Source: a virus
Virus record (IMG/VR): IMGVR_UViG_3300024518_003629
Span: 1 to 35,541 of that record
Direction: 5' to 3' (one strand)
DNA length: 35,541 nt
The position numbers and the translations under genes are program-made. Under the pieces are notes generated by a model. It did no database searches and was not told the origin of the DNA. It saw nothing but the letters and a program-made list of their open reading frames with translations. Below, piece by piece: positions 935 to 35,541 of the stretch. The stretch's first letter is position 1. Each line of letters opens with the position of its first letter.

Positions 935-1096
935 TTATACTAAAAAAGCACTGACTAAAAATATTGCTGAAATAGCACTAAGAGGCATTGTTATACAAGC
1001 GATTAATTCAGGAGCTATTTGATAATGATAACCTAAAAGAGCTATTATCAAAGCTGACCCTAAACACAGAATAAATCCTATCACCCTTCCCCTCAT
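935..1096 (-). CDS. Small two-helix membrane protein (53 aa), holin candidate
   Basis: The ATG at 1096-1094 overlaps the TGA of the upstream gene (TGATG) and follows a G-rich ribosome-binding site. The product starts MRGRVIGFILCLGSALI and has two hydrophobic segments (about residues 5-22 and 31-53) separated by a short polar YHYQIAPE turn. Basic N-terminus, hairpin topology and size fit a class II holin or another small phage membrane protein, but no lysin gene is adjacent. The stretch 857-934 below it is AT-rich and holds no further gene that I can see. Confidence 0.6.
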   Translation of the reverse strand: MRGRVIGFILCLGSALIIALLGYHYQIAPELIACITMPLSAISAIFLVSAFLV

Positions 1097-1449
1097 CAAA
1101 CCCCCCTATCGCTGCTTCTAATACAAGTTGCAATTTTAAATAAATTTGCTGTGTTAACTTCTAGCTTTCGTAAAAATGGGATTTCGTCTTTTTTTACATA
1201 AATATTTCCATACAACATTGAAACCATTCTTGGACGAATTATTAAAAACGTTAAATAATTGGAAAAATCTTCGTGTCCTTCTTCGTATTTTTCATAACAC
1301 TCTTCAATATCATCTAAGTCCGTCCTGGTTCCATGAATTCCAGAAGTTCCAAACATTATGAAGTTCATATCATCAACACCATCTTCAAAATATTCTTTTA
1401 AATAATCAACTGATTCTTCTTTTATGTGAATGTTTTTATAGTGGCTCAT
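1096..1449 (-). CDS. Hypothetical acidic protein (117 aa)
   Basis: The start ATG at 1449 overlaps the upstream stop (ATGA), so the gene is translationally coupled. The protein is acidic, with runs such as DLDDIEECYEKYEEGHEDF around residues 44-62 and a GTSGIHGTRT stretch just before. It has no membrane segment and no motif I recognise. It belongs to the replication-unit run of overlapping small genes. Confidence 0.75.
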   Translation of the reverse strand: MSHYKNIHIKEESVDYLKEYFEDGVDDMNFIMFGTSGIHGTRTDLDDIEECYEKYEEGHEDFSNYLTFLIIRPRMVSMLYGNIYVKKDEIPFLRKLEVNTANLFKIATCIRSSDRGV

Positions 1450-4423: not shown

Positions 4424-4825
4424 TTAATTTTGCGGTAAATTATAAATCGTTATTATACAATCCTTTCCTTTAATTATTTTAGTTAGTTCTTTTTCTGCGC
4501 TTCCTTGTATAACTTCCGGCTTAGGTCTAAACTTAGCCGTTAAAATACAGCCTTCAGTATTTAAATGTGTATTTCCCCCATGGAGTCTTATTCCTGTGAA
4601 TTGAGGGACATTTAATAATTCTGGCATTATCCTTTTAAATCGATTTGAATAAGAGGTAGTCACTTTATACTCACCTTTTATGATAGCCGTATGTTTTGGA
4701 ATTTTAATCCATTCAGGCCTCACAACATCTTCGAGGGTCCATGAAAACAATTCACCATCTAAATAAAGCTTTCCTATTGTTGTTTTAAGAAAATACTCAA
4801 GTCGATATAAATCTAATTTTATCAT
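4424..4825 (-). CDS. DUF5675-family protein, candidate cell-wall enzyme or endolysin (133 aa)
   Basis: The family pattern is clear: FSWTLEDVVRPEWIKIPKHT at 27-46, then GEYKVTTSYSNRFK, LLNVPQFTGIRLHGGNTHLN (70-89) and TEGCIL (90-95). The H82-GGN...T90-x-G92-C93 arrangement resembles the H..G..(S/T)xGC motif of L,D-transpeptidase-like folds. The family is named but its activity is, to my knowledge, unproven. No other lysozyme, amidase or endopeptidase is visible in the genome, so this is the best lysin candidate by elimination. I use the ATG at 4825 (AACAGG upstream) rather than the TTG at 4840. It is the last long gene of the 6155 unit. Confidence 0.85.
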   Translation of the reverse strand: MIKLDLYRLEYFLKTTIGKLYLDGELFSWTLEDVVRPEWIKIPKHTAIIKGEYKVTTSYSNRFKRIMPELLNVPQFTGIRLHGGNTHLNTEGCILTAKFRPKPEVIQGSAEKELTKIIKGKDCIITIYNLPQN

Positions 4826-4925
4826 TTTTAGCCTGTTCAATTCTAGAAACTAAAGATTTGTTCACTTTTAAAGTAATCAAACCCCTAGTTAATATTACTA
4901 TCTCATCCTTGGCGTAGTACTTCAT
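4797..4925 (-). CDS. Possible small overlapping gene (42 aa)
   Basis: The frame MKYYAKDEIVILTRGLITLK... bridges the end of the 4903-5172 gene and the start of the DUF5675 gene, overlapping both by about 20-30 bases. It looks like a small beta-alpha protein (KVNKSLVSRIEQAKNDKIRF). The ribosome-binding site is poor, and the frame is open upstream to 4985 with a basic, less plausible extension. The 77 bases it alone covers would otherwise be an unusually large gap in this unit. Confidence 0.45.
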   Translation of the reverse strand: MKYYAKDEIVILTRGLITLKVNKSLVSRIEQAKNDKIRFIST

Positions 4926-5172: not shown

Positions 5173-5176
5173 ACAT

Positions 5177-5860
5177 TTAATCTAGATTATTTTGTTGAGG
5201 TTCTTCAGCGCTTGTTTGTTGAGCCTTTTCAGCACTCGCTTTCAGAGCTATTTCAATATGCTTATCGAATATTTCATTGATTCTTTTATCTTTGGTAAAT
5301 TTATCACCATAACCTTTCTCGCCTTTTTTCCATAAAATATCCAATGATTTAGGATTCTTTTGCACAATTTTACATTGTTTATCAAACTCTTCGTGATTTA
5401 GCTCTCTTGGCTTTTGTGGAGCTGGTTTCTTTATTTGGGGCTTTCTTCTTTGTTGTTGTTCTGAATACCCTTCTAACTCCTCCGCTAAGACCCCTTCACC
5501 AACTGCATCTCTAAGAGCCCTACCCTTTGCCCTAGTTTCCGCCATTCGGACAATATGAGGTTTTATGAAGTCACTTACATTACCTGGTGCAGCGTCCCCA
5601 ATCCCGGTAAATGTTTTTAATATTTCTTCCCCTAATTCCCCCTCATCCATTATCACAACAGCTCTAAACATTGCCACATTTTTATCATTTTCGTAGGGGT
5701 TCATAATCATTTCAGTTTCAATTGACTTTAAGCCCATCCTATGAGCCTTTTTAAGAACTCCGTTGTAAGTGACATAAGATTTACCTTTTATGTCAATCGT
5801 ATCACCGGCTAATTCATCTGGATGGATTGCATTTTCACGGTTATGTTTTCTTTCATTCAT
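5177..5860 (-). CDS. Recombination-type protein, possible Rad52/Sak-like annealase (227 aa)
   Basis: Residues about 22-130 hold a segment I associate with phage annealing or ssDNA-handling proteins: YVTYNGVLKKAHRMGLKSIE, a strand pair FRAVVIMDEGELGEEILKTF, then TGIGDAAPGNVSDFIKPHIV and RMAETRAKGRALRDAVGEGV. The basic RMAETRAKGRALR helix would suit DNA contact. The C-terminal 95 residues are a Q/K/P-rich linker and a helical tail ending in QQNNLD. Neighbouring SSB, RusA-like and coiled-coil genes fit strand annealing during replication. Family assignment is from memory of the motif only. Confidence 0.8.
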   Translation of the reverse strand: MNERKHNRENAIHPDELAGDTIDIKGKSYVTYNGVLKKAHRMGLKSIETEMIMNPYENDKNVAMFRAVVIMDEGELGEEILKTFTGIGDAAPGNVSDFIKPHIVRMAETRAKGRALRDAVGEGVLAEELEGYSEQQQRRKPQIKKPAPQKPRELNHEEFDKQCKIVQKNPKSLDILWKKGEKGYGDKFTKDKRINEIFDKHIEIALKASAEKAQQTSAEEPQQNNLD

Positions 5861-6211: not shown

Positions 6212-7093
6212 CTAAAATAACTCTGGGATAGATTTCTTTACTTTCATGATAACATGTCTTTTTAATTGTTTGTAATCAATTTGAGGGTCTTTATTTTCCT
6301 TAATGAAATTCCATGACTCCTCTCTGATAAGGTCATAATAAACCGTGTTAAGTAGTCTAGGAATATATTTAGTTCTCCAACCGTCTTCAGCATTCCGAAT
6401 CTTCTCATAGACCTTTTGAACAAAGTGAGGGGTGATATATTTATCTGTAATTTTCTTTTCTACAGCCAATTTTTCTTTAATATCCAAAGGGTCATTCATT
6501 GCTCTGTGTTTATCTTTGAATTCATTTCTCACAATTTTAGCCCAAGTTTGACGGCCATATTTATTTTGATAAGAATAATTCTTAAGCACAACCCCCTCAC
6601 CAATTCCTTCATCAATTAGATAAGTGTTTTTCTCACACATTTCATAAAGAGTTTCTGGTTTTGCGTCTTCAATTCTACACAAAGGAGGAATGAATTCTAT
6701 TTCAAATTCTCTTAAAACATGGGCATAGTCATTATAATGAATTACCCCACTTGGACCGTAAACATCAAATACATAGAACTTTCTCCAAGCTGTTTTTCTA
6801 TATGTCTTCAAAGAATGAGGGATTAACCATTCACCAAATAAACGCCAATCAGGATAGAGTAAGAGCAAATTGGCAAAACGCTCATCTTCAAGAATAGCCT
6901 TCATAAATCCTTGATTGTCATCATCTAAGGAAAGCTCACGATTTCTTGAACCACACTTTAGCTCGTTCCCTTTTCGCCATACAGAGCCGTTTGACCCGTC
7001 TAGTTTAGGGAATACATAAACAACGCCCTCTTCAATTCCTTTTGTTTCTACAGTTTCATATCTTTCAACATGCTGATATCTTTTGAAATTCAT
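6212..7093 (-). CDS. Rnl2-type RNA ligase (293 aa)
   Basis: Nucleotidyltransferase motifs in order: motif I K30-LDG (adenylated lysine), motif III FGEWL (86-90), motif IIIa FYVFDVY (106-112), motif IV EGVVLKN (166-172) and motif V WAKIV (184-188). A helical C-terminal domain of about 100 residues follows, as in T4 Rnl2 (334 aa). It would seal 3'-OH/5'-phosphate RNA ends using ATP through a lysyl-AMP intermediate. The ATG at 7093 follows CAGGAGATAGA and lies 23 bases below tRNA-Ser, which points to repair of nicked tRNA. I see no polynucleotide kinase/phosphatase partner in the window. Confidence 0.92.
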   Translation of the reverse strand: MNFKRYQHVERYETVETKGIEEGVVYVFPKLDGSNGSVWRKGNELKCGSRNRELSLDDDNQGFMKAILEDERFANLLLLYPDWRLFGEWLIPHSLKTYRKTAWRKFYVFDVYGPSGVIHYNDYAHVLREFEIEFIPPLCRIEDAKPETLYEMCEKNTYLIDEGIGEGVVLKNYSYQNKYGRQTWAKIVRNEFKDKHRAMNDPLDIKEKLAVEKKITDKYITPHFVQKVYEKIRNAEDGWRTKYIPRLLNTVYYDLIREESWNFIKENKDPQIDYKQLKRHVIMKVKKSIPELF

Positions 7094-7115: not shown

Positions 7116-7200
7116 AAGAGAATGAAGGAATTGAACCCTCGCCAGTTTTATCTGGGCCACGCCTTAGCAAGGCAGCACATTACCACTCTGTCAATTCTCC
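7116..7200 (-). tRNA. tRNA-Ser (anticodon GCU)
   Basis: Class II tRNA. Acceptor stem GGAGAAT pairs with ATTCTCT, and the D-arm contains GAGTGGTAA. The anticodon loop is TTGCTAA with GCT at the anticodon positions, flanked by GCC/GGC pairs. The long variable arm is CCAG-ATAAAA-CTGG, and the T-arm is GAGGG-TTCAATT-CCTTC. No CCA is encoded. It reads serine AGC/AGU codons. It sits between a tRNA-like element and the RNA ligase. Confidence 0.9.
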
Positions 7201-7673: not shown

Positions 7674-8048
7674 CTATACCTTTCTACATTTGACATTAAT
7701 TAGAAAGTCTATATGTGAAGTTAAATCTTCCATTTTATCTTTACATAAATAAGTGTCATAACCACTTAAGCCTGCAACTGTGGTAATGCTTTCTTCATGT
7801 CCTGTAAGGATTAGGAGGGGAATTCTAAACTTAAACTTAAGCTCAACTAGCTCCTGGTTTAGTTTATAGCTTTTGTCAGGCAAGTTAACATCTAATATGA
7901 TTAAATCATACCTGTTTCTTTTAAGGGCTTCTAGTCCCTCTGTAAGGGTGTATTTTGATTCACAGTCATAATGGCCTTCGACCTCCATTTTAGACTTTAT
8001 ACCATAACAAAACCCTTCATTGTCATCTATTAGGATTATCCTTTTCAT
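7674..8048 (-). CDS. Stand-alone response-regulator receiver domain (CheY-like, 124 aa)
   Basis: All phosphorylation-site residues are present: acidic pair D8-D9 (IILIDDNE), phosphoacceptor D53 (LIILDVNLP), Thr82 (LLILTGH) and Lys103 (YLCKDK). Length equals one receiver domain, with no output or DNA-binding domain. In bacteria these domains take phosphate from histidine kinases and signal by protein contact. No histidine kinase is in the window, so phosphate would have to come from the host. The gene overlaps the 3' end of the membrane-protein gene by 26 bases and is the last gene of the late unit. A role in late control or host signalling is inferred. Confidence 0.92.
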   Translation of the reverse strand: MKRIILIDDNEGFCYGIKSKMEVEGHYDCESKYTLTEGLEALKRNRYDLIILDVNLPDKSYKLNQELVELKFKFRIPLLILTGHEESITTVAGLSGYDTYLCKDKMEDLTSHIDFLINVKCRKV

Positions 8049-8535
8049 TTTGTGGCATTTCTTTCATAAAAGAGGAAAATATTTTTATCAATTCTGCATG
8101 CTGTGCATCTTGTTTAGTGCTAATATCCAACATCCACTCTGCTGCGAACTCTCTATCACTTCCTTGTGTTCCAACTAGCTTATCATAAATAATAAATTTA
8201 GGTTTTACAAAGCTTTTCCACTCTTCAAATATTCTTTTTAGTTCTGCTTGTTCTTTCCTCATCTCTCTTACTGCAACCCATATCTCTTCTTGTTCCTTTT
8301 CTCGTTCTGACCTAGCCTTTAGTAGGGGGAACAATTTAAAGAGCTTAAAAGCCTTAGAAGATGTTTTTCGAGTGAGGATAAATATTATTGCTGTGAGAGC
8401 TACACAAATAAAAGCTAGAATTCGCCATTCAATAGGCCAGCCCTCATATAAAATGATGCTCTCATTGGCAATATGTACACCTTCCTCAATGAACTCTAGT
8501 TCTGAGACTTGTATAAGAGGAACAGTATCAGACAT
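8023..8535 (-). CDS. Single-pass membrane protein with cytoplasmic coiled coil (170 aa)
   Basis: Acidic N-terminal 30 residues (ELEFIEEGVHIANE), one transmembrane segment at about 37-55 (WRILAFICVALTAIIFILT) followed by a basic stop (RKTSSKAFKLFK), then a helical or coiled-coil region (REKEQEEIWVAVREMRKEQA, about 76-105) and a soluble C-terminus. An N-out/C-in topology is likely. It starts in a TAATG overlap with the tail-module gene and overlaps the receiver-domain gene, so the two are co-expressed at late times. It could be a holin-like or lysis-control protein or the membrane partner of the receiver. Confidence 0.8.
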   Translation of the reverse strand: MSDTVPLIQVSELEFIEEGVHIANESIILYEGWPIEWRILAFICVALTAIIFILTRKTSSKAFKLFKLFPLLKARSEREKEQEEIWVAVREMRKEQAELKRIFEEWKSFVKPKFIIYDKLVGTQGSDREFAAEWMLDISTKQDAQHAELIKIFSSFMKEMPQNEKDNPNR

Positions 8536-9323
8536 TAATTATCTACAACAATAATGTCAAAATCAGCTGAACCTGAAATATCAGCAGCAGAAGCAATACC
8601 ATTCATTTTTATAATAGCAGGGCCTTCAATTTCAAATTCTGGGTCAAAAGGGTGATCATCACTAGATTTTCCATTACTCTGGACCCCTATTGCATGGTCA
8701 GACCTAAAATTTGTTAATTCTACTGTTGGATTATCGTTTATAAGTAAACGATAAGTAATTGCAGCGGTTGACCCAGATGATTTCAAAATAGTTGCACTAA
8801 AAGCAGTAAGATAAGCTTTTTGAATAGATGGGATTCCATAAATAGCCATTTGTGTGCTCCCTATTCCCGGAAGAATAGCGGCTGTCACTGTACTATCTGT
8901 CTGAGCTGTGGCTGTAATTGTTCCAACATTTATATTAGTAGCCCCCCACGTTTGAACTTTCATTCTATAAATAATTACATAAGCGTTTGATGTTGCAACA
9001 TCAGTTGTACCATTCAAAGTAACTGTTTCTGATACTTCAGCAGTTGCCCAAGATGTTAATCCAAAAATTTTAACTGTTTGAGCTCCCACACCAACCGGGT
9101 CTCCATCGTCACTAGTGGAAGAACTAACAATATTATGTAGCCTCGCTTCAGTTGGGGCTACCCAAATTTGCTGTGTGGGTGTTGCATCTGCTCTATCCCA
9201 AACATCTGTAGGCGTAGCTTGAATACCAGAATCAGCAAAACCCCATTTATTCTCACTCCTCATGCCCGGAACGAGCCCTCTAGCTATGTCAAGTTTTGAC
9301 ATGCCATTTCCTTGCTTTTGCAT
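8535..9323 (-). CDS. Virion structural protein, beta-rich (262 aa)
   Basis: N-terminus KLDIARGLVPGMRSENKWGF, then long Thr/Ala/Ser-rich beta segments (GATNINVGTITATAQTDSTV, PGIGSTQMAIYGIPSIQKAY) and an acidic end DFDIIVVDN. I recall similar proteins among late structural genes of environmental podoviruses, as decoration or tail-associated proteins. I keep the ATG at 9323 because of the TAATG junction and GAGGT upstream. The ATG at 9302 (MSKLDIA) has AAGGA seven bases upstream and is a serious alternative. Confidence 0.78.
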   Translation of the reverse strand: MQKQGNGMSKLDIARGLVPGMRSENKWGFADSGIQATPTDVWDRADATPTQQIWVAPTEARLHNIVSSSTSDDGDPVGVGAQTVKIFGLTSWATAEVSETVTLNGTTDVATSNAYVIIYRMKVQTWGATNINVGTITATAQTDSTVTAAILPGIGSTQMAIYGIPSIQKAYLTAFSATILKSSGSTAAITYRLLINDNPTVELTNFRSDHAIGVQSNGKSSDDHPFDPEFEIEGPAIIKMNGIASAADISGSADFDIIVVDN

Positions 9324-9691
9324 TATAAAGATACCTCGGTTTCTATAGTGTAAGTAATTGTATAGGTTATTTTACCACCCGTATCAGCTTTTAGATGAAC
9401 GGCATCGCCCGACTTTAACACGTGTAAATCACCACTGACGCCTACATAAGAAGTATTATCAGCAATAGAAAGGTTTACAAAAGTCTTGTTCCCTCCCACT
9501 CCAGCTGTTGCAGTGCCACCGTTTTTAACTAAATAAGCGTCAATTACATCACCCCCTCCAGTATTATCATTTACTAGGTTAAAGCTTTGCATTTGAAAAA
9601 CATATCCATCAGGGAATGTAGAAGGACACGTTAAGACCGCAACTGCAGCAGTTGTAATTGTTCCCTGTACTGTTATATTATTAGCACCCAT
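9323..9691 (-). CDS. Small beta-rich structural protein (122 aa)
   Basis: MGANNITVQGTITTAAVAVL followed by Gly/Thr-rich strands and a GKITYTITYTIETEVSL end, compatible with a jelly-roll or Ig-like virion decoration protein. It lies between tailspike and membrane-protein genes in the late unit. The start at 9691 directly follows the upstream stop. No known family identified. Confidence 0.75.
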   Translation of the reverse strand: MGANNITVQGTITTAAVAVLTCPSTFPDGYVFQMQSFNLVNDNTGGGDVIDAYLVKNGGTATAGVGGNKTFVNLSIADNTSYVGVSGDLHVLKSGDAVHLKADTGGKITYTITYTIETEVSL

Positions 9692-9934
9692 TTATTTTAA
9701 ACTCCTTGTTGTGATTAAATCCGCTTTACTGTAAGTTGTTGCATTCTTTCTCGCTTCCTTCATCACTCCAGAATTCACGAGCTCTAGAAACTTTGTATCT
9801 AAGAAATCTGCAACGTAATCTTCAACCGTTGAATCATCTGCTCCACTTAAAGCCAAAACGGAAGCTTTCAGTTTGTTGTAAACCTCTGTTTTTTTGCCAT
9901 CTAGTAAAGTTACTGTAAATATTTTATTAGCCAT
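9692..9934 (-). CDS. Hypothetical small late protein (80 aa)
   Basis: MANKIFTVTLLDGKKTEVYN opens with two beta strands, then helices (VEDYVADFLDTKFLELVNSG) and a basic tail. Follows the tailspike by nine bases with GGGGTAACA before the ATG. Likely a virion or chaperone component by position only. Confidence 0.7.
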   Translation of the reverse strand: MANKIFTVTLLDGKKTEVYNKLKASVLALSGADDSTVEDYVADFLDTKFLELVNSGVMKEARKNATTYSKADLITTRSLK

Positions 9935-9943
9935 TGTTACCCC

Positions 9944-12334
9944 TTAAGACATGTTTTTAGCTATTGTTTTTCCCATATATACGGTTCCATCCCATATCAA
10001 TTCTACTAAATCTACTGCATTTATTGCGTTTGTAGGTACAAAAGCCCCATCTGTTGCATCCCAAATAACCGTTCCCGGCCAGGTAAAAGTTGTAGTTGGA
10101 GTAGACGAGCCTTGACTAAACTTAATGAAATACCTTGTTACAACAACGGGATTACTTAAAGTTACTGTTGAAATAGTGGCTTCGTCACTTAAATCTAAAA
10201 GAACACCTTGCCCTGAATTCCAATTAATAGCTAGGGTAGTGCCGGAAGCAACAACCCCCTGACCTAAAAAAGAGTCTTGACCATTTACAAAGAAATTTCC
10301 ATTTGGAATCGATACATTTTCACTAGTATCTATTTTAATTCCGTTGTTGGTTCCTAAAGAACCTGAATTACTAATAACAAAAGCATCTGTATCAGAATTA
10401 TGTAAACCAAAAGTCCACCCCCCACTTGTGCCAATTCTAGCACCAAAGTAAGAGTCACCCGTTGTTTCACCACTTGGAACAGATGTTATTATTCCAGAAC
10501 TAGTAGAGCTTGCATTTTGTTCGTGAAGTAAGGCACCTGTAGCAAAACTTAAATCCTCATTAGCCCAATAAGCTTTGCTTCCTTTAAAGCTGACCTCGTT
10601 AAAATTTCCAGAAATAGCAGAATAGTTTGCTCCGTCTGGCTCTAATGTTGAATCATCAGAAGTTAAAGCACCAACAAATAAATTCATTGTGCCACCTGTG
10701 ACTACATTAAAAGTACTCGTTGGGCTGGCCGTTGTAGTTAAAACATGAGCATGCAAAACAGATAAATCTAATGTATTTGTAGCATTTAACTTAAAAACTG
10801 AATTTGTTCCTGGGTCATCAAGAAATAGAGAACTGATACAAACAGAACCACCATTCATTAAGAAAGCATTTGTTAAAGAATCAACCACACTACCAGAAAA
10901 GAATAAAGAAGAGGCATTTTCAACTGTAACCCCGTTTTCTTGGTCATTTATAGACACTCCACTACATACAACCCCTTCGGCACCATTTACATATAAACCA
11001 CTAGTTCCGGAACCTTTATCAGAATCTAAAACACAGTTATTTAAATTTGCTCTAACTGTAGCAGAATCAAAAGCGATTCCATATCGTTGAATGTTTGTTG
11101 TTCTTACATTTGTGATATTTGTATCAATAGCAGTTGCTAGACTTATTCCATCTTGGAATCCAGAAATATAAACATTCTCTATCTCTAAGCTTTGGCAATC
11201 GTTTGTAGCAATTGCAATGTTAGTTTTAGCAGCATCACTTTGAAAACCTATATCCCTAATCGATGCAAAATCAACCGTTGTTCCTGTACTTAAATCAAGT
11301 GCATTATCAGAGTTTACAGCATGTTTAATTTGAGTTGTAAGAGGGCCAGAGCCAACCAGCTGAATATTATCAGTGGTTATTTGTAGGCTTGAACCAATAT
11401 TAAATACACCCGCCCTTAATTTTACTGTTTTAAGTTCTGCGCTTCCAGCTGCTGCATCAATTGCGGCCTGAATCTCTTCAACATCATCCGTTGTCCCATC
11501 TCCAGTAGCTCCAAACCATTCTCCATAAATAGCATCAGAAGATCCTTCTCCAAATACATAACTTCCAGCACCTGTAAAAAATGTACCACAAGTTTGGTCT
11601 ATTGTGGAGTTTATTGTAAGGGTTGTTCCACCATCTGCACTTAATTTGGCATCCCCACCCCTTCTTAAACTTAATCCAGCTGGAAAAGTAACGCTACTTG
11701 AAAACTTAAATGTTCCATTATCGAATAATATGTCATGCTCTTGCCCTGAAACACTCACATAAGTAATTACTTTACTGACATTTGTTTCGTCATCTGTTGC
11801 ACCGTCCCCAGTAACTCCAAACCATTTAACATTAATTGGGCCTTCAAATAATCGAATCCAACGCCCTGTCCCACTATCAGGAGCGAAAACAATTCCTCCA
11901 TCAGCTGTTGCGCTACTATCTGGGTCAAAATAAAACAACCCTCCGCCTCCATCACCTGCAGTTGTAAAGCCTGTGACCATGGCCATAACACTAGTTCCAT
12001 TTGCTCCAGGGTTAACAGCAGTCATCAAAGCAATTGATTCATAACGCCTAAAGTCTTGAGCTGCTGAAGAGATATTATCTACCGTCCAGACATCAACCTC
12101 AGCATCCGTTCTTAGTATAAATTTATAAGAACCATCTTCTAGCCAAATATCAGCTTCACCCCTGGAGTTTAAAACCGTTGGGTGAGCATTTGCGCTTACC
12201 GAAGATTGACTTGGGAATGTATCCTTTGGGTTAGAAGTTCCCGCTGCAAAAGCATATAGTTTATAACCGTTGGCAAGATTCCCACTAGTATCTAAAGCCT
12301 GAAACTTTGGCCAGGGTGTTAAAACATTCGCCAT
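9944..12334 (-). CDS. Tailspike with two pectate-lyase-type beta-helix modules (796 aa)
   Basis: The N-terminal 90 residues (PWPKFQALDTSGNLANGYKL, ADIWLEDGSYKFILRTDAEV) form a virion-attachment domain. A linker contains WFGVTGDGATDD (GDGATDD at 176-182) and a second EWFGATGDGTTDD (278-284). GDGxxDD is the usual first turn of pectate-lyase-like beta-helices, so the module start is present twice. The rest is repetitive strand-turn sequence to about 560, then a chaperone-like or lectin-like end (PVVVTRYFIKFSQGSSTPTT). Position after the three ejection-type genes equals that of P22 gp9. It should bind and perhaps cut a surface polysaccharide. The ATG at 12334 is in a TAATG overlap with GGAGG upstream. 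Confidence 0.88.
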   Translation of the reverse strand: MANVLTPWPKFQALDTSGNLANGYKLYAFAAGTSNPKDTFPSQSSVSANAHPTVLNSRGEADIWLEDGSYKFILRTDAEVDVWTVDNISSAAQDFRRYESIALMTAVNPGANGTSVMAMVTGFTTAGDGGGGLFYFDPDSSATADGGIVFAPDSGTGRWIRLFEGPINVKWFGVTGDGATDDETNVSKVITYVSVSGQEHDILFDNGTFKFSSSVTFPAGLSLRRGGDAKLSADGGTTLTINSTIDQTCGTFFTGAGSYVFGEGSSDAIYGEWFGATGDGTTDDVEEIQAAIDAAAGSAELKTVKLRAGVFNIGSSLQITTDNIQLVGSGPLTTQIKHAVNSDNALDLSTGTTVDFASIRDIGFQSDAAKTNIAIATNDCQSLEIENVYISGFQDGISLATAIDTNITNVRTTNIQRYGIAFDSATVRANLNNCVLDSDKGSGTSGLYVNGAEGVVCSGVSINDQENGVTVENASSLFFSGSVVDSLTNAFLMNGGSVCISSLFLDDPGTNSVFKLNATNTLDLSVLHAHVLTTTASPTSTFNVVTGGTMNLFVGALTSDDSTLEPDGANYSAISGNFNEVSFKGSKAYWANEDLSFATGALLHEQNASSTSSGIITSVPSGETTGDSYFGARIGTSGGWTFGLHNSDTDAFVISNSGSLGTNNGIKIDTSENVSIPNGNFFVNGQDSFLGQGVVASGTTLAINWNSGQGVLLDLSDEATISTVTLSNPVVVTRYFIKFSQGSSTPTTTFTWPGTVIWDATDGAFVPTNAINAVDLVELIWDGTVYMGKTIAKNMS

Positions 12335-16892: not shown

Positions 16893-17369
16893 TTAAATAA
16901 TAATCCTATAGTTTCCCGTAATTGATATTGAATCAGTCACAGTTGCCCATGTTGGAGTATAATGTCTTACCTTCCCATTTAATGTACCTGTGCTCTTTAG
17001 AACAGGCCCTGAACCGATACTAATATTGGTTGATATATTGTCTGTTTGGCCTTGCCCATCAACAGCAGAGAGAAAGGGTAAATTATTTATATATGTGGTT
17101 CCCGCTGTACTTGAAGTGTTTGTACCTGGAACAATTTTTACATCAAAAAAGACCATGGTATTGAACCTATAATAATTTCCTGTAATTGTTGCCGTCCCTA
17201 CTTCAGTCAAACTCGTAAACGTTGGAGTGAATGATATGACTTGACTATTTCTTTGCCCAAGCATCTTTTCAATACTTGTAAACCATTTTCCCCACACAAG
17301 ACCTAAGCCATTCATTCCGAATAATTGGGATTGAATAGGTGCTGGGTTTATATATTCTTTTGCGTCCAT
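16893..17369 (-). CDS. Fibre or needle-tip protein (158 aa) at the P22 gp26 position
   Basis: The N-terminal 40 residues (MDAKEYINPAPIQSQLFGMN, WGKWFTSIEKMLGQ) look like an attachment helix. Residues 45-158 are a beta domain with FTPTFTSLTEVGTATITGNY and a SISITGNYRIII end, a sequence style I know from receptor-binding ends of phage fibres. In P22 gene order this slot holds the tail needle. A short needle with a beta knob, as in Sf6-type needles, is plausible but inferred. Confidence 0.72.
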   Translation of the reverse strand: MDAKEYINPAPIQSQLFGMNGLGLVWGKWFTSIEKMLGQRNSQVISFTPTFTSLTEVGTATITGNYYRFNTMVFFDVKIVPGTNTSSTAGTTYINNLPFLSAVDGQGQTDNISTNISIGSGPVLKSTGTLNGKVRHYTPTWATVTDSISITGNYRIII

Positions 17370-18517
17370 TAATTTCTTAAAGCCTTACTTTCAATTGTTC
17401 CACCCGTAATAGCTACTTTCACCTTGGATGTAGTTTGAATTTCATAAACTCTATTTCTTGATGTTCCGAGCCTATCCCACCTAACCCTAGTTTCATACTC
17501 TCCTTTTTTACCCATTGAGCGCCAATGCTCATTTCCCCAAGACCTAGCCCCATTTTCTGACCATCTAAGTCTTATTTGTGGGTCTACATCTGGACCAGCC
17601 ACAATAGTGTAATTAACAGCTGAGCTCGTTCCTTCAGTTGTTGTCAAAGTGACAGGATGAACCCCCAATTCTAAACCGGGAACCGTCACCCCTGTTATTA
17701 AAGTGGGGTTGTATGTTGTTCCTGTAACTGCCGTTCCATCAAAATCAATTGTGGGGTCAGCAATTGAAGGAGAATTTAAAAGGTTTGTTCTATCTGAAGA
17801 GGTTAATAAATAATTATCATAATATCTGAAATCATCAATTTGACCGTCAAAATAATTAGCAACTCCAGAACCATAATCTGAAGCACCTACCCTTAAAAAT
17901 CCTGTTGTAGAATCAAAAGTTGAAGATGTACCAGGGCCAATAGTTGAAACATTATCAATATAAACAGTAGTTAACATTGTTCTAGGAGAAGAAAAAAGGG
18001 TTCTAGTTACGATAATATTATACCAAGTATCAACAACCATTGAGCCACCGCGAGCAGTAAAACTAGGAGGAGTATTGGGTCCATAGTAATAATTTATCCT
18101 ACCTGAAGCATCCACATAAAGAGTTTGAGCGTTAGTGTCTACAGTTGTATCTCCATTTTGGAAAATAACCATTGAATCCCTTAATACGTCCATCTTAATC
18201 CAAAAAGACATAGACCAAGTTCTTAAATCATCAGTGGTCCCCATAATTCCAGGGTGGGTTAAAGTGCTCGTTACATACTGAGAAGTTCCATTTAAATTTA
18301 TTGCTTGATTTATTTTACCCGTTACATATGTGGGAGAACCCGAACTCGTTTGAGCGTAGTTTCCTAATGCGTCTGTATCATCCCCGTCAAAACGTAGGTG
18401 CATACTTCCAGCGTTGCCAACTGTAGGTTCTACTTTTAAATCGGTTCCTATTATTCCAAATGTAGAACCAACAATACCCCTATTGGGTTGTAAGCTTGTG
18501 ATTGCTGGGGCGGTCAT
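17369..18517 (-). CDS. LamG domain inserted in a TIG/IPT domain, fused to a gp10-type C-terminal domain (382 aa)
   Basis: Residues 1-30 (PAITSLQPNRGIVGSTFGII) are the first strands of an IPT/TIG Ig-like domain. Residues about 38-248 are a concanavalin/LamG domain (MHLRFDGDD start, RTWSMSFWIKMD, DTWYNIIVTRT, NYFDGQIDDFRYYDNYLLTS). The TIG then resumes (TGVTVPGLELGVHPVTLTTT, SSAVNYTIV, to about 310). Residues 313-382 copy the separate 77-aa gene just upstream in transcription (18517-18750). The last domain should dock on the tail; the LamG could bind glycan. Confidence 0.82.
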   Translation of the reverse strand: MTAPAITSLQPNRGIVGSTFGIIGTDLKVEPTVGNAGSMHLRFDGDDTDALGNYAQTSSGSPTYVTGKINQAINLNGTSQYVTSTLTHPGIMGTTDDLRTWSMSFWIKMDVLRDSMVIFQNGDTTVDTNAQTLYVDASGRINYYYGPNTPPSFTARGGSMVVDTWYNIIVTRTLFSSPRTMLTTVYIDNVSTIGPGTSSTFDSTTGFLRVGASDYGSGVANYFDGQIDDFRYYDNYLLTSSDRTNLLNSPSIADPTIDFDGTAVTGTTYNPTLITGVTVPGLELGVHPVTLTTTEGTSSAVNYTIVAGPDVDPQIRLRWSENGARSWGNEHWRSMGKKGEYETRVRWDRLGTSRNRVYEIQTTSKVKVAITGGTIESKALRN

Positions 18518-18750
18518 TAATTCCTCAATGGCTTAGTTTCGATTGTTCCGCCTTTTATTGCAACTTTTACGGGAGCCGTTACCCTTATCTCATAAATCCT
18601 GTTTCTCGCTACACCTAAACGATTCCATTTTATTCTCTTTCTATACTCACCCTTCTTGCCCATTGGAAGCCAATGTTCATTACTCCAATTTCTGGCTTTA
18701 TTATTTGACCATCTAAGCATTATTTGGGGGTTAGATTCTGCTTCAGCCAT
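18517..18750 (-). CDS. Detached C-terminal domain of a gp10-like tail factor (77 aa)
   Basis: NPQIMLRWSNNKARNWSNEH, then MGKKGEYRKRIKWNRLG, RNRIYEI and PVKVAI. I know this block as the C-terminal end of P22 gp10-type packaged-DNA stabilisation proteins, where it is part of one chain. Here the preceding 414-aa gene ends in GVGLTS-stop and this frame restarts at the overlapping TAATG, in the -1 frame relative to it. By hand count about 48 of 70 residues match the C-terminus of the LamG protein. Confidence 0.82.
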   Translation of the reverse strand: MAEAESNPQIMLRWSNNKARNWSNEHWLPMGKKGEYRKRIKWNRLGVARNRIYEIRVTAPVKVAIKGGTIETKPLRN

Positions 18751-19994
18751 TAGCTTGTTAACCCCACACCTGTTTCCATAACAATTTGTAAACTATTATG
18801 TCTTACTCTTTTTTCATCTGAATCTATGTGCTGACAAGTTCTAATTCTTGGTATTCTATCCCCATTATCATCATAAGTATTTGTATCAAATTCATAAATA
18901 AGAGGTTTACTGTGGTCTCCAACTAATACTTTATTGAATGCTGAAATAGCATTTATTCCTCTATGCTTCTTGAGGTTTCCCGTTGAGGGTTGTAAATAGG
19001 CTTTCTCATGCCAAACCCCTGTAACTTCATCATAACAAAATGTCATTTCGTCAGCTTGGAATGATAATGTATAAACTGGATGCCCTTCTAATTCGTATGT
19101 ATACCCAACAGCATCTTCAGGAGTAGACATTTCATTTATCTTTCTTTCAATTGGGTGGGTACTTATTCTTTGTGATTGAAAGTTTACACTTTTGTAAATG
19201 CTACCAATTCCTTGTTCACTTCTTCCCAACCAGAAAATAGAATCATTCATTTTGGCAGCGGAATATCTAGCCAATATACCACGCTCAATTATAGCTCCTG
19301 GTATTCTTTCCATTGGGAAATCGTTGTTTCCCGTATCCTGAAAAACTTCAACACCATTTGAACCAAGCAACCAAATGTTTTGATTAGTGATTAAGAAAGA
19401 TTCAATTATATCCGGGTTGCTTTCAGCTGTTCCGAAATCTAAAGCGTTCCATGTAGTACCATCCAACAGCCCAGAGATAAAGAAGTCTTGTGTATTAAGT
19501 TGATTAACTAGAAAGAACTGGTCTAAGAAACCTGCATGTGTTGGAGAGCTTGGAAACCCTCCAGAGTTTGGAAAGTTGGTTGTGTTTATTTCCAATAATG
19601 TATTAGTGGTTAAAGTAAGTAGATATCCATTGAACCCATCCACAATCAACAACTCAGAACCATTATCAACCATACTGACAGTTCCAATAGTTGTATTAAT
19701 TGTACCTAGATTTGTTTCTATTCCTGAGCTATTAACCTCATAAAGAATATTTCCAGATACTGTAAAATACCTTCCTTTTGCTGTTTTATATTGACCCCTA
19801 ATCCCTCCGCCTGTAGTCAAATTGGCAAATAGCTTTAAGCCTGGAGTTCCGTACATTATTTGACCATCTGTATTTTGAGACTCTGGAGGAGCGTATTCTA
19901 AATATAGATTTACAGACCTTTGAGCCGCAAATGGTAAACTTCTGGCCTCATAAGCAGGCCCAAGAAAAGGAAACTTCAAGAAATAGTACTCCAA
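18750..19994 (-). CDS. P22 gp10-like tail factor (packaged-DNA stabilisation), body domain (414 aa)
   Basis: The N-terminus MEYYFLKFPFLGPAYEARSL...FAAQRSVNLYLEY and the beta-propeller-like body (GTPGLKLFANLTTGGGIRGQ, NIWLLGSNGVEVFQDTG, FWLGRSEQGIGSIYKS) are characteristic of the family that forms the tail hub between gp4 and the needle or spikes. It stops at VMETGVGLTS, where relatives continue into the RLRWS..G block; that block is the next gene. Overlaps the gp4-like gene by 19 bases. Confidence 0.87.
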   Translation of the reverse strand: MEYYFLKFPFLGPAYEARSLPFAAQRSVNLYLEYAPPESQNTDGQIMYGTPGLKLFANLTTGGGIRGQYKTAKGRYFTVSGNILYEVNSSGIETNLGTINTTIGTVSMVDNGSELLIVDGFNGYLLTLTTNTLLEINTTNFPNSGGFPSSPTHAGFLDQFFLVNQLNTQDFFISGLLDGTTWNALDFGTAESNPDIIESFLITNQNIWLLGSNGVEVFQDTGNNDFPMERIPGAIIERGILARYSAAKMNDSIFWLGRSEQGIGSIYKSVNFQSQRISTHPIERKINEMSTPEDAVGYTYELEGHPVYTLSFQADEMTFCYDEVTGVWHEKAYLQPSTGNLKKHRGINAISAFNKVLVGDHSKPLIYEFDTNTYDDNGDRIPRIRTCQHIDSDEKRVRHNSLQIVMETGVGLTS

Positions 19995-25759: not shown

Positions 25760-25842
25760 TACATTGTCCTTTTGAGGTCAGAGATACTCATATGTACATA
25801 AAATAGATTAATTATTTCCTGTTTGGCAATTTTATTATTCAT
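25759..25842 (-). CDS. 27-residue mini-gene between TerL and portal
   Basis: The frame MNNKIAKQEIINLFYVHMSI... fills the whole gap exactly. It starts in the TAATG at the TerL stop and ends in the TAATG at the portal start. Helical (KQEIINLFYVHM). It may encode a peptide, or serve only to carry ribosomes from TerL to portal so that the portal site (AAAAGGACAATGTAATG) is reached. Confidence 0.5.
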   Translation of the reverse strand: MNNKIAKQEIINLFYVHMSISDLKRTM

Positions 25843-27260
25843 TAATTACCCATCCAGCCATCATCAGAGGCGTAGTAGAAGTCTTGATGGGGTGCCTCTT
25901 CCTCTTCTCGTTCCTTAATTATGGGTGTTGCATAAGTCATTGCTAGGGCATCTCCATTATCTGGAGATTTAAGCCCCCGCCTTTTCATATCTTGCTTTTT
26001 CTCTAATTGAAGCCTGTTTTTATTATCAAAGCCATATTCAGGAGCGGTTAAATCAACCTTCATTTCATCACTGTAAGGTAAGTCTACCCCCGCTTTAAAG
26101 GCATCCTTCATTGTGTCCCACATTTCTATACGCTTATTGAAATATTTAATTGGGTTGTTTGCTTTCCTTCCTCCGTTTATTTCTTGAACTACTTCCGGGG
26201 GGATTAACTGCTTAACTCGGTCAACAACTCCACCTCCAACACCGTCTCCATCTATAAATATGGCCTCTGGTTTGCGCTCTTCATAAAATTCAACAATCTT
26301 TCCCGCTGTCACCATCGTGTCAACACCTCGCCAGGTTTGAATTGGTTCAACCTTTCTACCCTGCCTAACAGCTAAAGCATTTTGGTCATCCCCAAACCTT
26401 GCGATATCAACACCGAATATAATTGGAAACTGTTCATAACCTAAAGCCTCATACAAAAAGCAATCCTCTACAACTTCAGAAGATATCAATTGGTTTGAAC
26501 CTGCCCTTGGGAATTGTCCTTTTATCCTAATTCTGCAGAAATCCGAATCTTCCCCATAGTCCTCAATCCATTCTTTTATTTGACCCTTATCCGAAATAGA
26601 AACGTCTCTCGAATCAACCTGCATTGTTTTCCATCTATGTGCAAGCTTCCCCCAACATTCTTTAAACCTTCCAGTATTTCTAGTGGGATTCCCAAAGGCA
26701 ACCCAACGAGCTCCAGCTGTGGTCATTGCACCCTCTGAAGTTTCCCAAATGTTATCAGAAATGGCGCTTGCCTCATCAAATAAATAAAGTACATGGTCTT
26801 CATGAGTTCCCGCAAAGGCTTCAGGATTCTTTTCGCTCCATGGAATAGCAGAAGCAAACCAAGTATCAGGGGCGCTTTTCATATAAAACTTAGTTGCTAT
26901 TTTCTCATACCAACTCTTATTGAGGGCCATATTATTTATTTTAGATAGCTCTCTCCAGGTTTTAGTATCTAATTGGGATTTGGTGTTTGCAGTAACAACG
27001 ACTTGAGGTTCTGGCCTGGTTGACATAAACCAATGAATAATAACAGCTATTTCAAATGTTTTACCGATTCCATGCCCAGAAGCAACAGCAATTCTTTTAT
27101 TATCAACCAAGTTCTCTAGCATTTCTTTTTGCCAGTCTTCTAGGTTTTTTATTCCGAGTACATCGTAAGCATAACCAACCGGATTTTGGAAATAGTTTTC
27201 CGTTATAAATGCGCCATCATCCAAATTACTTATTCCATTTCTGTTTAATTTGGTCAGCAA
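25842..27260 (-). CDS. terL: Terminase large subunit (472 aa)
   Basis: ATPase: Walker A SGHGIGKT (61-68), Walker B VLYLFDEAS (157-165) and a coupling motif in FGNPTRNTG (189-197). Nuclease: GVDIARFGDDQ with D285, FIDGDGVGGG with D337/D339, and a C-terminal acidic residue in SPDNGDALAMT. A headful-type terminase of the P22/T4 class would explain the circularly permuted assembly. Overlaps terS by 35 bases. Confidence 0.95.
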   Translation of the reverse strand: MLTKLNRNGISNLDDGAFITENYFQNPVGYAYDVLGIKNLEDWQKEMLENLVDNKRIAVASGHGIGKTFEIAVIIHWFMSTRPEPQVVVTANTKSQLDTKTWRELSKINNMALNKSWYEKIATKFYMKSAPDTWFASAIPWSEKNPEAFAGTHEDHVLYLFDEASAISDNIWETSEGAMTTAGARWVAFGNPTRNTGRFKECWGKLAHRWKTMQVDSRDVSISDKGQIKEWIEDYGEDSDFCRIRIKGQFPRAGSNQLISSEVVEDCFLYEALGYEQFPIIFGVDIARFGDDQNALAVRQGRKVEPIQTWRGVDTMVTAGKIVEFYEERKPEAIFIDGDGVGGGVVDRVKQLIPPEVVQEINGGRKANNPIKYFNKRIEMWDTMKDAFKAGVDLPYSDEMKVDLTAPEYGFDNKNRLQLEKKQDMKRRGLKSPDNGDALAMTYATPIIKEREEEEAPHQDFYYASDDGWMGN

Positions 27261-35023: not shown

Positions 35024-35138
35024 ACATTTTTTCAAATTCTGCAATTTTCTTTAATCTGTCCTTTACTCTCCATACTCTCACTTGGTTTATTGAAAAGCCA
35101 ATCATTAAACCCATTAGAAAAGCAGTTGAATTTTCCAT
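35019..35138 (-). CDS. Small protein with hydrophobic N-half (39 aa)
   Basis: MENSTAFLMGLMIGFSINQV is hydrophobic, then comes a basic helix (RVWRVKDRLKKIAEFEKMS). It starts in a TAATG overlap with the loader-like gene and ends just inside the promoter element. Probably the last gene of the replication unit. It could sit in the membrane; role unknown. Confidence 0.55.
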   Translation of the reverse strand: MENSTAFLMGLMIGFSINQVRVWRVKDRLKKIAEFEKMS

Positions 35139-35541
35139 TATCTAGTCCTTTTTTTGGTTAGTCGCTTTATTATTTCTTGAATATCGTGTTTTGGTTCTGG
35201 CTCTTTAGCCATTTTAAGGTACTTCTTGTGTTGTGGATGTTCTGGGGGGTACTTGTCAGCGAAAAGCCAACATTGTTGTTCCCACGACATTGCAGGCTCA
35301 TCATAGGGTAATTTATAGCAGTCTGAAGAGTTTCTTTCCTTAAGAGCCATCCAAATTTCTTTAATCTCTCTGGGTTTAGGCATAAACTTTCCCTTAGCTC
35401 GGAATTCTTTAAAACAATCTCTAAGTATTTCAGGGTCGTGATTTTCCGAAAAGTTCTCTTCTGCCCAAGTATTAGCTTGAATCTTAAGGGTATCCTCTGA
35501 ATCAATTTTTTTTCCTAGCGATATATGGGTTATAACCAATT
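35138..35541 (-). CDS. Helicase-loader-like replication protein, 5' end wraps to position 49
   Basis: Within the window the frame is open to the end. Across the circular junction it extends to an ATG at 49-47 with AAAAGGAAACAA upstream, giving 147 residues that begin MELNRGIATVIYEQL. The segment NHDPEILRDCFKEFRAKGKFMPKPREI resembles the helical core of G39P-type and lambda-P-like loaders (a helix, then F.P...EI). It starts inside the 3' end of the initiator gene and follows it, the order of initiator-loader pairs in lambda-like and SPP1-like phages. The helicase it would load must come from the host. Confidence 0.7.
   Translation of the reverse strand, partial: LVITHISLGKKIDSEDTLKIQANTWAEENFSENHDPEILRDCFKEFRAKGKFMPKPREIKEIWMALKERNSSDCYKLPYDEPAMSWEQQCWLFADKYPPEHPQHKKYLKMAKEPEPKHDIQEIIKRLTKKRTR
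35533..35541. repeat. Terminal overlap identical to bases 1-9
   Basis: TAACCAATT occurs at both window ends. Merging the copies gives a 35,532-bp circle in which two overlapping genes read through the joint. This is what a circular or headful-packaged, permuted genome gives after assembly. Confidence 0.75.

Follow-up and report, generated by a model that had tools for sequence, protein, structure and literature searches.

The locus analysed here raises the question of why a phage would encode a stand-alone receiver domain in overlap with a small membrane protein at the end of its tail genes. About half of our confidence is given to the reading that the two genes form a late-expressed membrane-protein/receiver unit of the phage lysis equipment, which would modulate lysis.

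Genome and gene order

The window, i.e. the whole stretch of DNA that was analysed, is the virus record IMGVR_UViG_3300024518_003629 (35541 bases). A 9-base overlap (AATTGGTTA, minus strand) is shared by positions 1-9 and 35533-35541, and the ORF 35138-35539 continues in frame over the joint (joined by eye) into a frame with an ATG start at the left end. Because of this terminal overlap and the reading frame that spans the joint, the window may be a whole circularly mapping genome, for which 9 bases are weak evidence. The capsid, portal, gp10-like and terminase genes matched the P22/epsilon15 kind (phrog_283, phrog_156, phrog_578 and phrog_5902). The relatives of the terminase and the portal in IMG/VR had at best 55% and about 35% identity, respectively, over long stretches, and the MCP scan for relatives gave none. 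The closest annotated terminase (52%, versus window 25842-27260) was that of vir555 (BK063671, L048), a record that assigns a Methanomicrobiales host; the other vir555 genes look bacterial-phage-like, and it may be worth checking this host assignment. In the window, the gp10-like protein of head closure (phrog_578) was split over 17369-18517, 18517-18750 and 18750-19994: its C-terminal region makes up a 77-aa gene of its own and recurs in the final part of a 382-aa gene.

All of the main genes lie on the minus strand. The tail gene run consists of 9944-12334, 9692-9934, 9323-9691 and 8535-9323, followed by 8023-8535 and 7674-8048. The features used below are as follows.

9944-12334, minus strand: tailspike/fibre-like protein, its N-terminal region resembling (by eye) the tail genes that precede the lysis cassette in the related loci L144 and L145
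8535-9323, minus strand: last tail/fibre-type gene ahead of the pair (phrog_8198), its stop overlapping the membrane-protein start (TAATG)
8023-8535, minus strand: single-pass membrane protein, 170 aa, ATG start, predicted N-out/C-in
8023-8048, minus strand: overlap of the membrane-protein and receiver genes
7674-8048, minus strand: stand-alone CheY-like receiver, 124 aa, ATG start (PF00072)
4424-4840, minus strand: DUF5675 protein (PF18925, 80 bits) that carries an H-x-G...G-C motif and is a candidate cell-wall enzyme
935-1099, minus strand: 54-aa ORF with two TM segments and without PHROG match, possible (unproven) holin

The receiver gene was followed by a 51-base gap, and no convincing terminator was found. 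A tRNA-Ser(GCT) gene (7116-7200) adjoins an RNA ligase gene (6212-7093), and these two are perhaps a tRNA-repair counter-defence pair.

The receiver

The receiver scored 45.1 bits against PF00072 (curated cut-off, 30.2) and was the sole PF00072 domain in the window record. The original prediction was correct in describing this ORF as a receiver that keeps the acidic pair D8 and D9, the phospho-acceptor D53, T82 and K103 and has no output domain; a DNA-binding domain was likewise absent, position 100 was the aromatic Y100, and K103 was followed by D, not by the usual P. The AF2 model (pLDDT 83, pTM 0.80), built on five sequences of which four came from the Alteromonas phage group, had the five strands and five helices of the alternating alpha/beta receiver fold, and its top fold matches in the PDB were receiver domains with a probability of 1.00. 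By sequence, the nearest proteins were OmpR-type receivers, e.g. PmrA/BasR and CtrA, with 38.8 bits to PmrA versus 21.7 bits to the receiver of Alteromonas phage R8W. Since it is nearer to the OmpR-type cellular receivers than to other phage receivers, the window receiver looks, on sequence similarity, like a separate acquisition from the receivers of other phages.

The view that such phage-borne receivers are rare fits the present data, in which none of the 68 records related to the window phage had PF00072 above the cut-off. The 40 loci that encode relatives of the tail protein ahead of the pair likewise lacked it, and the single-protein scan of IMG/VR viral contigs with the window receiver found no relative. 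No HATPase_c domain, and so no histidine kinase that would make up a full two-component system, was found in the window record.

Several of these features would suit a decoy, the second function originally proposed, in which the receiver drains phosphoryl groups from a host histidine kinase and so dampens, late in infection, a stress response of the host, with the membrane protein as its anchor near the membrane kinases. The active site is intact and uncoupled from any output domain, the phage has no kinase of its own, and the likeness of the receiver to OmpR-type receivers of cells, PmrA among them, means that a host kinase could accept it as a partner. A late place at the end of the operon suits a phosphate sink poorly, and with the evidence from other phages given below the decoy is considered rather unlikely.

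The membrane protein and the overlap

The membrane protein had one strong TM segment (residues 37-55, mean hydropathy 2.36). Its N-out/C-in topology was predicted because Lys and Arg are absent from the acidic residues 1-36 and a stretch rich in both follows right after the TM segment. The cytoplasmic helical domain is plausibly a coiled coil: the heptad score was reached by 5.6% of the shuffles in crude heptad statistics, and AF2 placed a helix at 78-120 with a mean pLDDT of 43, in a model that was not used. Thus, the single membrane pass of the original description was confirmed, and the coiled coil received weak support from these two values. No relative of the protein was detected in Pfam, PHROGs, NCBIfam, the phage collection, IMG/VR and GTDB genomes at the sensitivities used, and none of the holin/hemolysin families of Pfam, PHROG and NCBIfam was matched.

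The existence of both genes, their coordinates and their overlap of 26 bases were as predicted, and the two genes close the run of tail genes. The overlap suggests, from the gene arrangement, a coupled translation of the membrane protein and the receiver.

Membrane-protein/receiver pairs in Alteromonas phages

It had been stated that no phage system was known to pair a receiver with a co-translated membrane protein. That statement was overturned by about ten sequenced Alteromonas phages of several unrelated genome types, in which the gene directly ahead of the receiver gene encodes a small protein of membrane or helical type. The two genes usually overlap by 4 bases, and lysis genes (holin, lysozyme, M15 peptidase, DUF5675 and spanins) surround or adjoin them. 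Nine named Alteromonas phages and a metagenomic relative were each searched whole, and each genome had one receiver; the comparison set is accordingly dominated by phages of one host genus. No histidine kinase over the cut-off was found to be phage-encoded.

The pair of phage R8W was found through a weak tblastn match. There, the class II holin gp46 lies just before gp47, whose product of 98 aa has a single TM segment and a helical tail in the cytoplasm. The last 4 bases of gp47 overlap the start of gp48, which encodes a stand-alone receiver of 153 aa. The gp43-gp44 pair of H4/4 has the same 4-base overlap and a class II holin just before it, and in R9Y1 (_13/_12) and the metagenomic relative (L142) the overlap is again 4 bases, with a GH108 lysozyme as the next gene. 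The partners of R8W and R9Y1 were homologous (pairwise E 8e-11). R8W gp48 has been annotated as PhoB and as an auxiliary metabolic gene (PMC8228385), and a role of this kind, e.g. in a PhoB-like response to phosphate limitation, has that published annotation in its favour. It is nevertheless highly improbable here: the window receiver has no DNA-binding domain within its 124 aa, R8W gp48 is too short for a PhoB-type one, and the genes sit in lysis regions.

The partner in XX1924 and PB15 has an N-terminal coiled coil and a C-terminal TM segment as in XhlA, with a match to phrog_937 ('hemolysin') in XX1924. Here the genes overlap by ATGA and the receiver is followed by DUF5675 or an M15 peptidase, after which XX1924 has a 3TM holin and PB15 a nearly identical gene. 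In V22 (gp29-gp30) and A5 (gp10-gp11) an Rz-like spanin gene overlaps the receiver end and an amidase or endolysin is close by, with partners whose N-termini are merely weakly hydrophobic. The receivers of V22 and A5 have been described as CheY-like and as class II auxiliary genes within a host-recognition module (PMC10579305, PMC7289586). Their treatment as host-function genes in those papers, together with the CheY-like architecture, favours a mimic of a host single-domain regulator of the CheY/DivK type, acting on motility or the cell cycle before release and lying near lysis genes through late timing alone. This explanation leaves the constant membrane or helical partner unaccounted for, and the best sequence matches of the window receiver among solved structures are OmpR-type, not CheY; we consider it distinctly unlikely.

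V19 and R22Y have an 11-base overlap, and their DUF5675 and holin-like genes are encoded on the other strand. By alignment, their receivers have lost the acceptor Asp and the Lys and kept the acidic pair, and the overlapping membrane gene has been retained. This weakens the decoy, as the pair was kept in receivers that can no longer accept phosphate at that Asp; the consistent lysis neighbourhood is also left unexplained by a phosphate sink. Phage pseudo-receivers of this kind, still paired with the membrane gene, lie at L130 4998-5450 and L134 4001-4465. DUF5675 adjoins the receiver or lies within 2 kb of it in XX1924, V19, R22Y and V22.

The soluble domain of all partners was predicted to be cytoplasmic, the compartment in which a receiver would also reside; for most of them the crude heptad statistics left a coiled coil unproven. 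The expected conservation of the pair was seen in the Alteromonas phages, since homologues of the partners in the phage collection occurred only beside a receiver; the window membrane protein itself had no significant match among the 7921 ORFs of the collected loci and no significant homology to the Alteromonas-phage partners (R9Y1_13 included). The arrangement itself is shared, with a small single-TM protein encoded directly upstream of the window receiver. The all-group receiver alignment was too divergent for scanning.

The two window genes might also be chance neighbours, with a membrane protein that serves in superinfection exclusion or as a structural accessory and a receiver that was recently acquired as a passenger. 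In keeping with this, the membrane protein is an orphan, and the absence of the receiver from the 68 related records points to a recent or rare gain. On the other side stand the same arrangement in several other phage groups, the overlap of the two genes and the fact that just about 3% of the genes of the window phage encode small single-TM proteins. In seven such genomes, the window included, these genes make up about 6% (35/555), for which reason it is unlikely that chance put one immediately ahead of the receiver gene in four or five lineages; no firm probability is attached to this, given the abundance of membrane genes in lysis regions. Chance neighbourhood in the window is therefore regarded as unlikely.

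Most receiver matches in the 'phages' collection were left out, as they look like host DNA filed as phage (not checked singly): unannotated OR8xxxxx records of Listeria, Staphylococcus and Enterococcus, Acinetobacter MD-2021a, and faecal MT83xxxx contigs. Stenotrophomonas phage Bhz63, with an OmpR-type regulator that has a DNA-binding domain, a kinase fragment and an adapter-like read-through, was set aside. The histidine-kinase fragment of Bhz63 (L132 4717-5547) contains GVQTCALPIF, which resembles a translated sequencing adapter at a misassembly.

The post-tail position in related phages

L144 and L145 have a portal like that of the window and no receiver, and carry a TM/coiled-coil protein and a lysis cassette right after the tail genes. 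In L144 a 157-aa protein (5175-5648) with a TM segment and a long helical domain overlaps the fibre gene by 25 bases and is followed by a two-TM holin-like gene, a spanin-like pair and DUF5675. The cassette of L145 consists of an XhlA-like protein, DUF5675 and a 3TM holin; XX1924 has a gene set of the L145 kind with the receiver between the XhlA-like gene and DUF5675. DSL-LC05, a relative by its capsid, has a peptidase and a holin in the post-tail slot. Because this same slot holds the lysis cassette in L144 and L145, the window membrane protein is the positional equivalent of the TM/coiled-coil proteins of lysis cassettes; its sequence comparison with the L144 protein was negative.

DUF5675 was found in the endolysin position at window 4424-4840, L144 4085-4495, L145 3469-3861, L129 2438-2836 and L134 5045-5440. 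The family, whose H...G-C motif resembles that of L,D-transpeptidase-type enzymes, is a candidate for phage enzymes that act on the cell wall.

A possible role of the pair in lysis

The lysis link of the original prediction gained independent support from the receivers in or beside the lysis cassettes of unrelated phages and from the window slot, which in two portal relatives is taken up by lysis genes; the phosphorylation gating that went with it is putative. The link is suggested by gene context. As the window membrane protein has no detectable sequence relative, it is by position and architecture that this orphan would be a lysis protein.

In the favoured reading, the membrane protein would act like the small TM/coiled-coil proteins of lysis cassettes (holin helper or antiholin class, as XhlA/BhlA). 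The receiver made from the same message would bind its cytoplasmic domain, and this putative contact would bring membrane failure forward or put it off. Among the phages that have the pair, most might have their receiver phosphorylated by host kinases or acetyl phosphate, there being no phage-encoded kinase; this would change the binding, so that host physiology would bias lysis timing. Phosphorylation is not universal among the pairs, as the V19 and R22Y receivers lack the phospho-Asp. Because these two phages keep the pair without it, binding seems more basic to pair function than phosphorylation, and a phosphate sink is unlikely as the general function. Against the lysis reading count the weakly hydrophobic partners of V22 and A5 and the distance of about 2.8 kb between the window receiver and DUF5675, the nearest candidate; in contrast to the Alteromonas pairs, no recognised lysis gene adjoins the window pair, and beyond DUF5675 no lysis family was found nearby.

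A broader idea, held tentatively and at clearly less than an even chance, is that a CheY/OmpR-type receiver was repeatedly taken up into phage lysis cassettes, beside a membrane protein whose helical domain is cytoplasmic, with host phospho-signalling setting the moment of lysis. Known lysis timers are holin/antiholin ratios, membrane energisation, and periplasmic and DNA signals. With a receiver in the lysis unit, phage exit would be tied to host kinases or the acetyl-phosphate level, and this would explain the 'CheY/PhoB auxiliary genes' of marine phages, which have been annotated without a tested function. Cultured Alteromonas phages carry the pair, which makes the idea directly testable.

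Comparison with known systems

The component parts are already known, and what is new here is the receiver-in-lysis-cassette pattern. In the openly licensed papers searched, neither a receiver placed in a lysis cassette nor a named membrane partner was found, and control of lysis timing by host phospho-signalling is not described. The lysis regulator and pinholin of N4 (gp62/gp63) are similar in that a cytoplasmic regulatory input acts on a membrane lysis protein (PMC12642591), whereas in N4 the name 'Receiver domain' was given by the authors to a part of the pinholin and does not denote a CheY-like receiver. The XhlA-XhlB-XlyA cassette of PBSX likewise has a small membrane protein predicted to work with a holin (PMC5589764); it has no receiver, and the window protein matches none of the holin or hemolysin families.

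In V22 gp29-gp30 and A5 gp10-gp11, as in the window, a small helical protein and then a CheY-like receiver follow the tail fibre and chaperone, but the partner is weakly hydrophobic, the genes are separated by gaps of 1-2 bases without overlap, and the phages are contractile or N4-type. XX1924 and PB15 share with the window a coiled-coil/TM protein followed by an overlapping receiver, with reversed topology. The pairs of R8W, H4/4 and R9Y1 differ from the window in that their membrane proteins have no detected sequence similarity to the window protein, and their receivers, which are extended at the C-terminus, resemble the window receiver no more than cellular receivers do. They are like it in that a single-TM N-out/C-in protein is encoded upstream of, and overlapping, an intact stand-alone receiver at the end of the tail module, where these pairs adjoin a holin or a lysozyme.
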